NCBI RefSeq assembly: GCF_003182275.1
Contig: NZ_QGTR01000001.1
Span: 912,215-976,214, forward strand
Reading direction: 5' to 3'
DNA length: 64,000 bases
Source of the DNA: Hoeflea marina
GTDB taxonomy: Bacteria; Pseudomonadota; Alphaproteobacteria; Rhizobiales; Rhizobiaceae
Below, one piece after another: positions 11,123 through 55,138 of this stretch (positions are counted from its first letter, which is position 1; every line of letters starts with the position of its first letter). The notes below the pieces were generated by a model, which saw nothing but the letters and a program-made list of their open reading frames with translations, was not told the DNA's origin and ran no database searches. The translations under genes and the position numbers were made by a program.

Positions 11123-12180
11123 TTGCGTGCCTCGCTGACAAGCAGCCAGATGAAATAGAGCCCGCCGACATTGAACGTCATCACGCCCACCGGCAGCTGG
11201 AAGCCGAAGGCATGCTGCGCCGCCCAGTCCGATGCGATCAGCAGCAAGCCACCCATCAGCGCCGAAGGGACGAGTGCCACCCCGGCCGAGCGCACGAGCC
11301 TGCGGGCGAGTTGCGGCGCGGCAAGCGCGATGAAGCCAATCGGCCCGGCGGCCGCAGTGACCAGAGCCACCAGCGCCACGCCGACCAGCGCCAGGCACAC
11401 CCTGACCCGCTCGGGCGAAACCCCCGAGGCCATGGCGGCGTCGTCGCCGAGCTCAAGCTGGCGCAATGGCCGCGCCAGCATCAGCGCCGCCGGCATCAGC
11501 AGCGCCAGCGCGAGTGCCGCCGGCAGCAGCCGGTCGAGGCCAAGCCCGTTGAGCGAACCCGCCGCCCACATCGCCGCCGACATGGCGACCTGCAGCTCGG
11601 CCTTGCGGATCATCCACACATTGGCCGCCGACAGCATGGCAGCGATGCCGATCCCGACGACGATCAGCCGGAAGCCGTCGACGCCCTGCCGCCAGGTCAG
11701 CGCATAGACGGCGACGGCGGTGGCTATGCCGCCGCCGAGCGCGCCGACCGCCGTCTCATAGTAACCGCCTGAAAAGATCAGCATCACCACCAGCGCGCCC
11801 GTATGGGCGCCGGCCGAAAAGCCGATGATGTCGGGAGAACCGAGCGGATTGCGCGTGAGCGATTGGAAGATCGCGCCGCTGACGCCGAGCGCGGCGCCGA
11901 GCAGCAGCGCCAGCAGTGCCCGCGGAAGGCGCCATTCCAGAACAATCATGCCCGCCATCCCGTCGCCGCGCCCCGAGAGCGCCCGCGCCACCTCCGAGAA
12001 CGGCAGGCCGTAGTCGCCGGAGACCAGCGACATCAGCATGAGCACCAGACTTGCAGTGCCCATGCCCATGCAGGCAATCAGCGTGCGGCGGCTGAGCCGC
12101 ATCGAGATCCGGCCGCCGGTCAGCCAGCCGAGCGGACGGATGACGAGGACGCCACGGGCAAGATCCGGCGGCGCGCTCAC
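11119..12180 (-). CDS. Iron-siderophore ABC permease (FepG-like)
   Basis: 353 residues, FecCD family (PF01032), about 9-10 membrane helices. Family motifs include GAALGVSGAIFQSLTRNPL, and the ATPase-contacting GPIGFIALAAPQLARRLV near the C-terminus. I chose a GTG start at 12180 that overlaps the stop of the preceding permease (GTGA), matching the coupling style of the whole operon. An ATG 87 nt further in would give a shorter protein, also of acceptable length, so the start is moderately certain. It pairs with the FepD-like protein to make the heterodimeric channel. Confidence 0.92.
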   Translation of the reverse strand: MSAPPDLARGVLVIRPLGWLTGGRISMRLSRRTLIACMGMGTASLVLMLMSLVSGDYGLPFSEVARALSGRGDGMAGMIVLEWRLPRALLALLLGAALGVSGAIFQSLTRNPLGSPDIIGFSAGAHTGALVVMLIFSGGYYETAVGALGGGIATAVAVYALTWRQGVDGFRLIVVGIGIAAMLSAANVWMIRKAELQVAMSAAMWAAGSLNGLGLDRLLPAALALALLMPAALMLARPLRQLELGDDAAMASGVSPERVRVCLALVGVALVALVTAAAGPIGFIALAAPQLARRLVRSAGVALVPSALMGGLLLIASDWAAQHAFGFQLPVGVMTFNVGGLYFIWLLVSEARK

Positions 12181-51324: not shown

Positions 51325-51921
51325 GTTCAAACCTTCATTTCCTCGCGATTGCGCCGATCGGAACGTTGCCGCCCGGCGCCAACGCCGGACCTCCGGCGCC
51401 GCATGTGGCATTTACAGTGATGCCTCTCGCATCGGTTGCCCGATCGGAGGCCCGTCTCAACTTGCCCTGTCGGATGTGCCAGTCGGCAGCCAAACCGGAC
51501 TTTCGAACTGCTGCGGCCGGAACGCGCCGGACTGAGGAAACGCTTTCGAACTTGGAATCCAAGTCGTTGTTTCCGCTTGCGTTTCGCGCTCCCGCAGCAT
51601 TCTGTCTTCTGCGATATGGTCCCATTCTGGTCCACGAAATGACACAGGATCATCGCAAACCAATCCAGCGGCAGGGGAAACCCCGGCCGACCGTCCCCGC
51701 AAGTATGCGATTTTCAGCCAAATGGCAAGCCTGAGCGTCAACAGATCACGACCTCCGTGTGACGAAGAGATGACCGCTCGGGAGCCTGCCGCGACGAGGT
51801 TGCGGCGGGGGTGGCCGGCCGGCGCTGCGCGGCCCGAAGACCGAACCGGCGCGGATGCCGCCGAACTTCACCGGCTCTTAACAGCGCGCATGTAGCATGC
51901 CGGCCAATCCAGGAGGATCGC
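51325..51921. other. Intergenic region upstream of tig
   Basis: About 600 nt between the divergent tig and glycosyltransferase genes. It should hold both promoters. ORFs on both strands are plentiful but GC-driven, lack ribosome sites and match nothing I know. No tRNA or riboswitch is evident. Confidence 0.4.
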
Positions 51922-52985
<1,064 letters not shown>

Positions 52986-53231: not shown

Positions 53232-53464
53232 ATGGGGCGCTGCCCCGGTGGCGCCGGGCGAACCCGGACGCGGCGCCTCTATAGCACCGGGCTCGGGCCG
53301 CACAAAGGGAAATGCGCCATCCGCGCCCGCATTCCCCAGCCCTTTGCAGCGGGCAGCAAATGCGAATGGTGCCGGTGCGAACGATTTGATTCGGCAGACA
53401 AATTTCAGCCCACCAAATGGGCAAATGCCCACGCATGCGTTTTTCGCATGGCTCTCATGATGAT

Positions 53465-53479
53465 ATTGCACTGCACAAA
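53465..53479 (+). promoter_or_regulatory. Upstream element of DUF1127 gene 1
   Basis: ATTGCACTGCACAAA; a second motif CCTATG-like begins 28 nt from its start. The same pair with the same spacing stands before DUF1127 genes 2 and 3. It fits a LysR-type activator site (VtlR/LsrB) plus -10 box. Confidence 0.5.
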
Positions 53480-53554
53480 TCGATTAGTATGACCTATGTG
53501 TTGGTCATCGGAGCGCTGCAGCGGCGAACCGGCAGAGACCCCAAGGAGCGAAAG

Positions 53555-53695
53555 ATGAAACTGATCACATCCTACGCCAGTTGGCGGAAATATCGCGAAA
53601 CCTGCTCGGAGCTCAACAGGCTTTCCGAGCGTGAGTTGGGCGACATCGGCATGAGCCGCGGCGACATCCCGTTCGTCGCCAGGCGCGCGCTTTAA
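53555..53695 (+). CDS. DUF1127 protein 1
   Basis: 46 residues. KLITSYASWRKYRETCSELNRLSERELGDIGMSRGDIPFVARRAL, read in pieces, is the standard DUF1127 arrangement: Trp-Arg-rich helix, LSDRELxDIGxSRGDI motif and basic end. Such proteins in Rhodobacter (CcaF1) bind RNA, and in Brucella and Agrobacterium they are VtlR-activated. AAGGAG is 8 nt before the ATG. Its 3' side carries three CCTCCTCCC stem-loops, as at the Rhodobacter CcsR locus. Confidence 0.9.
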   Translation: MKLITSYASWRKYRETCSELNRLSERELGDIGMSRGDIPFVARRAL

Positions 53696-53712
53696 GATTT
53701 AGGAATTCGGGC

Positions 53713-53830
53713 CGGCAGTATCCTCCTCCCATTGCCGTACCGATGTGACTGGCAGCCACCTCCTCCTCCCAGGTTGCCAGTCGTGCAAAATGGCGCTCAC
53801 CGGATCCTCCTCCCCCGGTGGGCGCTATTT
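53713..53830 (+). ncRNA. Cuckoo/CcsR-type small RNA array, three stem-loops
   Basis: Three successive hairpins, each exposing CCTCCTCCC in the loop. Hairpin A: stem CGGCA/TGCCG (53713-53717, 53733-53737). Hairpin B: GACTGGCA/TGCCAGTC (53747-53754, 53775-53782). Hairpin C: AAATGGCGCTCACCGG pairs with CCGGTGGGCGCTATTT with two mismatched or wobble positions (53788-53803, 53815-53830). It begins 18 nt after the DUF1127 stop. CcsR RNAs of Rhodobacter sphaeroides have this design, arise from the DUF1127 transcript and act in stress. Boundaries of the mature RNAs are estimated. Confidence 0.8.
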
Positions 53831-53997
53831 GATTCAGCGCCCGCCCCTTCCAGCCAGTCGTGCCACCGTCAATCGATCCGCATCCGCGTGAAGGCCGGCG
53901 CAATGAGCGCCGAGTCCGCCGGCAGCAGCCGCAACCGGCTGCAAATCAACACTTTGTTAATCCGCCCTGCACGAGCCGCATGGCTATTATGCAATTT

Positions 53998-54012
53998 ATT
54001 GCACTGCACAAT
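53998..54012 (+). promoter_or_regulatory. Upstream element of DUF1127 gene 2
   Basis: ATTGCACTGCACAAT, identical to the gene 1 element for 14 of 15 positions. CCTATAT begins 28 nt after its first base. T-N11-A-like spacing between outer T and A bases, typical of LysR sites. Confidence 0.5.
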
Positions 54013-54090
54013 CCAAACCTCGTCACCTATATTGTGAGCATGCAAACGGGCGGTTCGAACCGTCCAGATCAAAGCCTGAAAGGAACGACA

Positions 54091-54234
54091 ATGAACATTC
54101 GCAAGTCCTACAACGAGTGGCGCGCTTACCGCACGACCGTCAACGAACTTTCCCGCATGTCCGATCGCGAACTGAGCGATCTCGGCATCTCCCGCGGCGA
54201 CATCCCGTTCGTCTCGCGTCGCGCAGCCCAGTAA
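54091..54234 (+). CDS. DUF1127 protein 2
   Basis: 47 residues, close paralogue of protein 1: NIRKSYNEWRAYRTTVNELSRM, then SDRELSDLGISRGDIPFVSRRAAQ. AAAGGA is 8 nt before the ATG. A near-perfect palindrome GGGCGG-TTCGAA-CCGTCC in the leader (54048-54065) could form a hairpin. Followed by its own terminator, so it is monocistronic. Confidence 0.9.
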   Translation: MNIRKSYNEWRAYRTTVNELSRMSDRELSDLGISRGDIPFVSRRAAQ

Positions 54235-54272
54235 GCAGACCACCCGCGCGGCAACCCTGTTGCCGCCCGATC

Positions 54273-54302
54273 AAACGGCGCCCTCGCAAGAGGGCGCCGT
54301 TT
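54273..54302 (+). terminator. Terminator of DUF1127 gene 2
   Basis: 13-bp stem AAACGGCGCCCTC / GAGGGCGCCGTTT with a GCAA tetraloop. A further hairpin GCGGCAA/TTGCCGC lies at 54248-54266. The 3' stem ends in TTT. Confidence 0.85.
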
Positions 54303-54466
54303 CCGTTTGCACCACACATGCGGCCTGCCGCTCGGGCCCGTATCCGCGCGGATCCATGGCTAAAGAGCACCGCGGCGACACGATTGCTGCCTATTTTAAT
54401 TGCACTTCTGAAAACTGCACCCGCGATGGATCAGTCCTCCGAAAAACGCATGGCAGGCCAGCGATT

Positions 54467-54481
54467 ATTGCGCTGCACAAT
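54467..54481 (+). promoter_or_regulatory. Upstream element of DUF1127 gene 3
   Basis: ATTGCGCTGCACAAT, one base different from the gene 2 element; CCTATAT begins 28 nt from its first base, the same phase as at genes 1 and 2. Confidence 0.5.
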
Positions 54482-54492
54482 TCTGAGGCAAA

Positions 54493-54709
54493 CGCCTATA
54501 TCGACGGCACGGAATTGATGGCCCGCCAATGTGACGGGCAACCGCCACCTCAGGAGCCTACCATGAACATTCTTCGCGCCGCCCGCACCTGGATGAAGAA
54601 CCGCCAGACTGCAATCGAGCTTGCCAATCTCTCCAACGAAACGCTCGCCGACATCGGCCTCAACCGCTTCGACATCGACTCGGTTGCCCGCGGCATGCGC
54701 CGCCGTTAA
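54493..54709 (+). repeat. Tandem duplicated DUF1127 unit, copy A
   Basis: Leader from CGCCTATATC to the ATG (70 nt) plus gene 3. Shares the leader hairpin GCCCG/CGGGC (54521-54525, 54535-54539) and ribosome site with copy B at 54924-55138; a segmental duplication. Confidence 0.7.
54563..54709 (+). CDS. DUF1127 protein 3
   Basis: 48 residues: NILRAARTWMKNRQTAIELANL, then SNETLADIGLNRFDIDSVARGMRRR. Longer C-terminal Arg tail than proteins 1 and 2. CAGGAG is 7 nt before the ATG. Leader and first codons are a near-copy of gene 4. Confidence 0.9.
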   Translation: MNILRAARTWMKNRQTAIELANLSNETLADIGLNRFDIDSVARGMRRR

Positions 54710-54740
54710 GACCTGAACGGGTCAGATATAGTGTGATTGG

Positions 54741-54764
54741 CGGCGCCCTCCGGGGCGCCGTTTT
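54741..54764 (+). terminator. Terminator of DUF1127 gene 3
   Basis: Stem CGGCGCCC / GGGCGCCG with loop TCCG followed by TTTTG. Confidence 0.85.
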
Positions 54765-54923
54765 GTTGCGACCGTCTGCCGGACCGGTTCAGCCACGTCG
54801 AGCCGCACCGCCTTGCCAAGCTTGTTTTTTGGGCATTTTATACCCCAGCCTTGGTTTCCGGCCAGTCCCCCATTTCTTGCATGGCAGCTGCGCCAATCCA
54901 GACCTGCTCATTTGCACGGCAAT

Positions 54924-55138
54924 CGCCTATATCAAGTGCACGGAAATGATGGCCCGCCAATGTGACGGGCAACCGCCACACTGAGGAGCCTACCATGAAC
55001 ATTCTTCGCACCGCACGCAGCTGGATGAAAACCCGCCAGACCGCAATGGAGCTGTCCAACCTCTCCAATGAGTCGCTCAACGACATCGGCCTGAGCCGCA
55101 TGGACATTGATCGGGTTGCCCGCGGCCTGCGCCGCTGA
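54924..55138 (+). repeat. Tandem duplicated DUF1127 unit, copy B
   Basis: Leader of 71 nt from CGCCTATATC to the ATG, with the same hairpin (54952-54956, 54966-54970), plus gene 4. Unlike copy A, the exact 15-bp upstream element is not seen at the expected spacing; a nearby TTTGCACGGCAAT (54911-54923) may replace it. Confidence 0.7.
54995..55138 (+). CDS. DUF1127 protein 4
   Basis: 47 residues: NILRTARSWMKTRQTAMELSNL, then SNESLNDIGLSRMDIDRVARGLRR. Paralogue of protein 3. GAGGAG sits 6 nt before the ATG. Followed directly by its own terminator. Confidence 0.9.
   Translation: MNILRTARSWMKTRQTAMELSNLSNESLNDIGLSRMDIDRVARGLRR

Follow-up and report, generated by a model that had tools for sequence, protein, structure and literature searches.

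A CIN1-type locus of Hoeflea marina: a DUF1127 gene followed by an ar14-type cuckoo RNA array, with a promoter that hints at PhaR

A short DUF1127 gene of Hoeflea marina is followed directly by three hairpins that share one loop motif, which raises the question of what kind of RNA these hairpins form and what controls their production. Six DUF1127 matches occur in the genome (5.26 Mb, 20 contigs, 96.6% complete), and the 64-kb stretch of DNA analysed here (hereafter the window) contains four of them. The four genes and the hairpin array of the window are as follows:

53555..53695, + strand: D1, DUF1127 protein, 46 aa (PF06568, E 1.5e-14)
53702..53830, + strand: ar14/cuckoo RNA array, three hairpins (RF02344, 92.8 bits, cut-off 58.8)
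53709..53741, + strand: hairpin 1, loop CCTCCTCCC at 53722-53730 (-12.1 kcal/mol; 8/200 shuffles equally good)
53747..53782, + strand: hairpin 2, loop CCTCCTCCC at 53762-53770 (-20.3 kcal/mol; 0/200 shuffles; covarying pairs)
53788..53830, + strand: hairpin 3, loop CCTCCTCCC at 53806-53814 (fold prediction)
54091..54234, + strand: D2, DUF1127 protein, 47 aa, no array (PF06568, E 2e-17)
54563..54709, + strand: D3, DUF1127 protein, 48 aa, no array (PF06568, E 1.6e-11)
54995..55138, + strand: D4, DUF1127 protein, 47 aa, no array (PF06568, E 1.3e-11)

D1 is 87-91% identical to proteins at seven loci, six of which are from Hoeflea, and an array lies behind the D1 ortholog at all seven of these close Hoeflea-like loci. 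At 6/7 of them, trmFO occurs in the same stretch as the D1 ortholog, as it does in the window; TrmFO identity is 84.6-86.7% across seven Hoeflea loci. Upstream of D1, positions 52932-52983 hold 26 perfect GA repeats, the first of them in the stop codon of an open frame (51811-52932), and this tract is a candidate hypervariable tract.

The 9-mer CCTCCTCCC starts at 53722, 53762 and 53806 and has no other copy on either strand of the 64 kb, so that the initial annotation, which described three consecutive stem-loops with a shared loop motif, was right on this point; three or more copies anywhere arose in 4/100 shuffles of the whole window. It had placed the first stem 18 nt after the D1 stop codon, a distance that fits the inner part of the stem, whereas the stem actually begins after 12-13 nt. 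Fold prediction, one of the checks proposed with that annotation, came out in its favour: the segment 53693-53870 is far more stable than its shuffles (z = -4.34; 0/200 as low). So did the covariance-model check, in which the ar14 model RF02344 aligned over all 123 of its positions (1-123) above its gathering score, with an E-value of 1.2e-15 for the whole window. The ar14 match begins 6 nt behind the D1 stop codon, and together with the PF06568 match of D1 it confirms that a DUF1127 gene is directly followed by an anti-Shine-Dalgarno array of the cuckoo type. This array is of the ar14 (NfeR1, rhizobial) type; the ar7 model also matches it, below its own cut-off.

In an alignment of 35 arrays (the window and 34 of 84 collected arrays), the loops show no variation, and for 20 of the 24 predicted pairs at least one sequence has both partners changed. 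The consensus fold of these 35 arrays misses stem 1, presumably owing to arms that are out of register. In eight related loci, the third hairpin is followed by T-rich sequence; the window has a weak T tract at this position, and a terminator scan that permits loops of 3-8 only found no terminator after hairpin 3.

The initial annotation had further proposed a fourth pairing that competes with the third stem and hints at a switchable 3' end. The structure in question is:

53817..53845, + strand: alternative hairpin, 53817-53826 paired with 53836-53845 (-19.3 kcal/mol alone)

Such a pairing is physically possible and stable on its own (0/200 shuffles are as good), and the window ranks third of 75 in the folding of this stretch. 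Moreover, in two of eight related loci (L195 and L149), a different stretch downstream of the third hairpin pairs with its 3' arm at -18.3 kcal/mol. When forced, however, the alternative reaches -22.9 kcal/mol versus -27.9 kcal/mol for the third stem and is thus 5 kcal/mol worse. A perfect complement of at least 7 nt to the 3' arm of hairpin 3 occurs in only 3/70 arrays, the window counted in, with a shuffle p of 0.07 in the window. The AGCGCCC of the window is absent behind the third stem in 8/8 related loci, and in the other six of them the stretch behind the third stem folds at only -7.7 to -14.8 kcal/mol. A 3' end that alternates between hairpin 3 and the alternative hairpin thus has weak support at best, and we consider it very improbable.

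Within an order-wide draw of 297 genomes, an ar14 match at E 0.001 was found in at least 103 genomes and one above the cut-off in at least 55. The loci that we examined come from this draw and from 40 further places, and high-scoring arrays are over-represented among them because of how the loci were chosen. In examined loci of five families (f1, f11, f16, f41 and f44), the first loop follows the DUF1127 stop codon at a distance of 19-69 nt. Other arrays have no DUF1127 gene in the examined stretch (L001 and L009-L012). L001 is the second ar14 copy of the H. marina genome (positions 1483-1626 of that locus); it resides on another contig, carries a fourth anti-Shine-Dalgarno loop in front, and lacks a DUF1127 gene within the 3.1 kb examined. 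Tandem arrays, with two or three ar14 units in succession or nine to ten loops per run, stand behind one or two DUF1127 genes in six loci (L013, L014, L016 and L035-L037). A genus with genomes of 1.4-2.7 Mb (L279-L294) has exactly one DUF1127 match in 16/16 genomes, and in five of these a sub-cut-off ar14 match directly follows the gene.

Candidate targets of the loops were surveyed with the pattern GGGAGGAG-N4-10-ATG, which has 34 genomic sites versus 2 for the reversed pattern. Thirty of the 34 sites were taken as loci, and they provide 17 start frames of at least 100 aa. Fourteen of these frames have a Pfam match, and half of the matches (7/14) are solute-binding proteins (DctP three times, SBP_bac_1 twice, NMT1 and Peripla_BP_6), the remainder being an ABC ATPase, a sulphur transporter and five others. 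The GGGAGGAG sites of the solute-binding genes may reflect generally strong Shine-Dalgarno sequences.

The second part of the question concerns the promoters, for which the window contains the following elements:

53446..53452, + strand: GCATGGC half box at about -61 of D1, LsrB/VtlR-like (one mismatch in the 13-mer, by eye)
53466..53478, + strand: TTGCACTGCACAA, PhaR-like box over the -35 of D1 (12-mer TGCACTGCACAA matches TGCRNYGCASMA 12/12)
53493..53498, + strand: CCTATG, probable -10 region of D1, by position
53978..54031, + strand: D2 promoter, with GCATGGC at 53978, TTGCACTGCACAA at 53999-54011, CCTATA at 54026 and a sigma-70-like match at 54005-54033
54448..54500, + strand: D3 promoter, with GCATGGC at 54448, TTGCGCTGCACAA at 54468-54480 and CCTATA at 54495
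54879: GCATGGC of the D4 promoter, which lacks a PhaR-like box

D1, D2 and D3 share the layout GCATGGC-N13/14-TTGCRCTGCACAA-N14-CCTAT, and the compound of its GCATGGC and TTGCRCTGCACAA parts occurs exactly three times in the genome, each time before a DUF1127 gene. D2-D4 follow one another (54091-55138), each with a promoter of the D1 type, that of D4 without the PhaR-like box. A simple scan that found the D2 promoter gave no sigma-70-like match for the D1 promoter and none between D1 and the array.

The distance from GCAT to CCTAT is 47-48 nt in D1-D3 and likewise in D4. The GCAT therefore lies at about -61, which is the position of the LsrB/VtlR consensus (GCAT-N3-TG-N3-T, about -61 to -49) in the abcR1 promoter (PMC8844928, PMC7486931). 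VtlR is reported to activate three DUF1127 genes and abcR2 in Brucella (PMC12595884), and LsrB is reported to activate NfeR1 (PMC10746234). The position of the D1 box fits this consensus; the box has TC instead of TG, and a matrix built from 14 boxes picked by eye puts it in 58th place among the positions of the window. The top matrix scores of the window belong to LsrB-like boxes at 11634 and 31266, which were dropped for their overlap with long open frames. In the genome, a LysR gene adjoins the AbcR (ar15) gene and is named putative LsrB/VtlR by this position; it has no listed NCBIfam model above cut-off, and homologs with 56-75% identity occur in 16 other genomes of the 17 searched.

The PhaR consensus TGCRNYGCASMA (PMC6201568) is matched 12/12 in the D1, D2 and D3 promoters and is not matched in that of D4. 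The TTGCACTGCACAA box is kept in seven D1-ortholog promoters that had not been chosen for it, as well as in one locus that had (L143). Genome-wide, TTGCRCTGCACAA with at most one mismatch has 28 sites versus 7 for the reversed pattern. The exact sites stand before D1, D2 and D3 and in L078 and L082, the latter two not placed; of the one-mismatch sites, four (with TTGCANTGCACAA) lie by three phasin genes and the citrate synthase gene, and 19 others were not placed. At one phasin locus (L103, about 1501-1531), two successive PhaR-like boxes are situated between divergent phasin genes. For S. meliloti, phasin genes and gltA are described as repressed by PhaR or as candidate targets of it (PMC12542648), and phaR itself is present in the H. 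marina genome (TIGR01848, E 1.5e-41). A literature search outside the founding cuckoo, CcsR and CcaF1 papers and the 2017 NfeR1 paper found no link between PhaR and DUF1127 or ar14, and the word DUF1127 is absent from the main texts of the PhaR literature searched by term.

Scanning 84,980 species genomes for the compound promoter GCATGGCN{12,15}TTGCRYTGCACAA yielded at least 122 matches in at least 119 stretches. Among the 122 matches listed, the first feature downstream is a DUF1127 gene in 64 (two of these assignments being weak, at 21.8 and 20.8 bits), a cuckoo array in 28 and neither in 30; lone chance copies of CTCCTCC, such as that in L155, were not counted as arrays in this tally. An array follows the DUF1127 gene in 2 of the 64 DUF1127-first matches listed, and a DUF1127 gene lies within 700 nt in 15 of the 28 array-first ones. 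The 30 listed matches with neither gene include 6 from Mesorhizobium and 15 from distant or less related groups. A spacing of 46-48 nt from GCAT to CCTAT is found, again among the matches listed, in 53/64 DUF1127-first, 4/28 array-first and 2/30 other promoters. In two loci (L164 and L167), a single compound-type promoter precedes an array, a DUF1127 gene and another array, in this order.

The same box can be followed from the array side, in 62 array loci that were found by the RNA model and not by the promoter. TGCRNYGCA occurs at most 505 nt upstream of the array in 38/62, and the full PhaR-like 12-mer is present in 22/62. As controls we used stretches downstream of the arrays, which were available at 30 of these loci; in these 30, which have enough flank on both sides, the 9-mer is found 21 times upstream versus once downstream. 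Thirty of the 62 loci carry the box apart from an LsrB-like box, 8 have it solely within one, and 24 lack it, namely 15 loci of f1 and 9/10 of f44. Both f44 genomes tested for phaR (2/2) contain it; the loci without the box count against PhaR control.

How the box over the -35 is read decides what would control the locus. For the D1 promoter itself, we give a chance somewhat short of even to the prediction that PhaR binds over the -35 and holds transcription down until PHB accumulates. The competing explanation, in which the box gives that one LysR regulator a second contact or simply belongs to the core promoter, so that LsrB/VtlR is in sole control, appears to us possible but rather doubtful. 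It draws on the general LysR form T-N11-A, which TTGCACTGCACAA also matches, and on the eight array loci whose TGCRNYGCA never occurs except in the right half of an LsrB-like box; these make up 8 of the 38 loci with the 9-mer and weaken the simple equation of TGCRNYGCA with PhaR. The middle base of the box, for which the pattern allowed C or T, also behaves as a fixed -35 would need, being C in 89/92 DUF1127 or cuckoo matches versus 16/30 other matches among those listed. Yet the seven close orthologs keep the -35 box but not the left half of the LysR box, whose GCAT reads GAAT in 7/7, a change that also speaks against the LsrB/VtlR-like box of D1. The AbcR promoter of the genome contains two LsrB-like boxes but, over the 140 nt shown, lacks such a palindrome, and the PhaR-like box precedes the LysR box in some clades and follows it in others. 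A further argument against sole LysR control comes from the f1 genus with small genomes mentioned above, in which phaR was found in 0/16 genomes: TGCRNYGCA occurs within 190 nt upstream in 0/16 of its DUF1127 genes, while GCA...TATG boxes remain, by eye, at 16/16 of the promoters, although this genus represents one loss event and its loci have 33-44% G+C.

Two other explanations concern the array itself. The initial annotation had named it Cuckoo/CcsR, and a CcsR operon proper would provide RpoH-driven oxidative-stress RNAs that are cut into separate units. The order of a DUF1127 gene and then CCUCCUCCC hairpins is indeed that of the CcsR operon, and the -10 element CCTAT of D1 resembles the RpoH1 -10 CCTATAT (PMC8844928). 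The CcsR1 model RF02791 does match the array, but at 32.9 bits versus its cut-off of 65.3, 60 bits below ar14, and membership was rejected on this score; the name thus holds for the cuckoo array and the CIN1 layout, and the model that passes is ar14. By eye, the D1 promoter has CTGCAC at -35 and CCTATG at -10 and does not fully match either of the sigma consensuses quoted in PMC8844928; its -35 agrees in 4/6 positions with CTTGAC and in 3/6 with CTTGAA, which is a small difference. We consider a CcsR operon proper unlikely. It is likewise improbable that the hairpins are a mere 3' end or stability element of the DUF1127 mRNA, with no action on other mRNAs. The position of the array directly behind the D1 stop codon and the T-rich sequence after hairpin 3 in relatives would suit such an element. 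Against it stand the invariant loops in variable stems, the DUF1127-free arrays described above, the 13 of the 28 array-first matches listed that have no DUF1127 gene within 700 nt, and the action in trans that is reported for NfeR1 through these loops (PMC10746234).

We therefore favour as the likely explanation the rhizobial (ar14/NfeR1) version of a CIN1-type locus, with hairpins that would act in trans and a transcript predicted to be under LysR/PhaR control. One transcript would start from the promoter at about 53446-53500 and cover D1 and then the three cuckoo hairpins, a joint transcript that we infer because the gap is only 6 nt. Its transcription is predicted to be activated from -61 by an LsrB/VtlR-type LysR regulator. 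The hairpin part of about 125 nt would either be cut off from the transcript or end it at hairpin 3, and would act in trans. By analogy with NfeR1 of S. meliloti, the CCUCCUCCC loops would pair with the Shine-Dalgarno sequences of target mRNAs, chiefly those of uptake systems, and stop their translation. The DUF1127 protein may help in RNA maturation or turnover, as is reported for CcaF1, a DUF1127 protein of R. sphaeroides that contributes to the maturation of the RNAs encoded behind ccaF1 (PMC10253847); for the DUF1127 proteins of Agrobacterium and Salmonella, action via protein contacts is reported (PMC12501420).

On a wider scale, Rhizobiaceae and neighbouring families might have their DUF1127 genes and cuckoo RNAs in one regulon that combines an LsrB/VtlR box at -61 (redox) with a PhaR operator (carbon store), here placed over the -35, so that PHB would lift PhaR and the anti-Shine-Dalgarno RNAs would shut nutrient uptake; we put this forward tentatively, with slightly more doubt than belief. 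If it is true, a cell with a full carbon store stops importing, and the recurrence of DUF1127 genes with NfeR1-type RNAs is partly explained, both being outputs of one switch. Binding of PhaR to these promoters, if it takes place, would explain the timing of cuckoo RNA and DUF1127 production and tie carbon storage to the repression of uptake genes.

Comparison with known systems places the locus as follows. The combination of short DUF1127 genes with CcsR-like or cuckoo RNAs has been termed the CIN1 locus (PMC10253847, after Reinkensmeier and Giegerich 2015), and D1, a short DUF1127 gene directly followed by cuckoo hairpins, conforms to it. The array resembles NfeR1 of S. meliloti (RF02344) in its three hairpins with CCUCCUCCC in each loop, its length of about 123 nt, its variable stems and an LsrB-like box upstream; NfeR1 is reported to silence ntrB and some transport mRNAs via three redundant loops (PMC10746234, PMC7143759). 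NfeR1 is, however, described with its own promoter, whereas the window array stands directly behind a DUF1127 gene, and the window promoter has the additional PhaR-like box over the -35. The locus also has its gene order and its loop motif in common with ccaF1-CcsR1-4 of R. sphaeroides, but that system has four RNAs and an RpoHI/RpoHII promoter, in contrast to the one three-hairpin ar14 array and the LysR/PhaR-like promoter of the window. With the LsrB/VtlR regulon of Rhizobiales (AbcR, NfeR1 and DUF1127 genes), the locus shares the target classes and a GCAT half box at about -61; it differs in that the D1 box deviates from the consensus at one position and a single promoter would serve both gene and array. 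Its 12/12 box, finally, is like those of the PhaR (AniA) regulon (phasins, gltA and others), and near-identical boxes lie by the phasin genes and gltA of this genome. The locus is thus a CIN1-type pairing already known in related bacteria, and what is new about it is a promoter suggestive of PhaR control.
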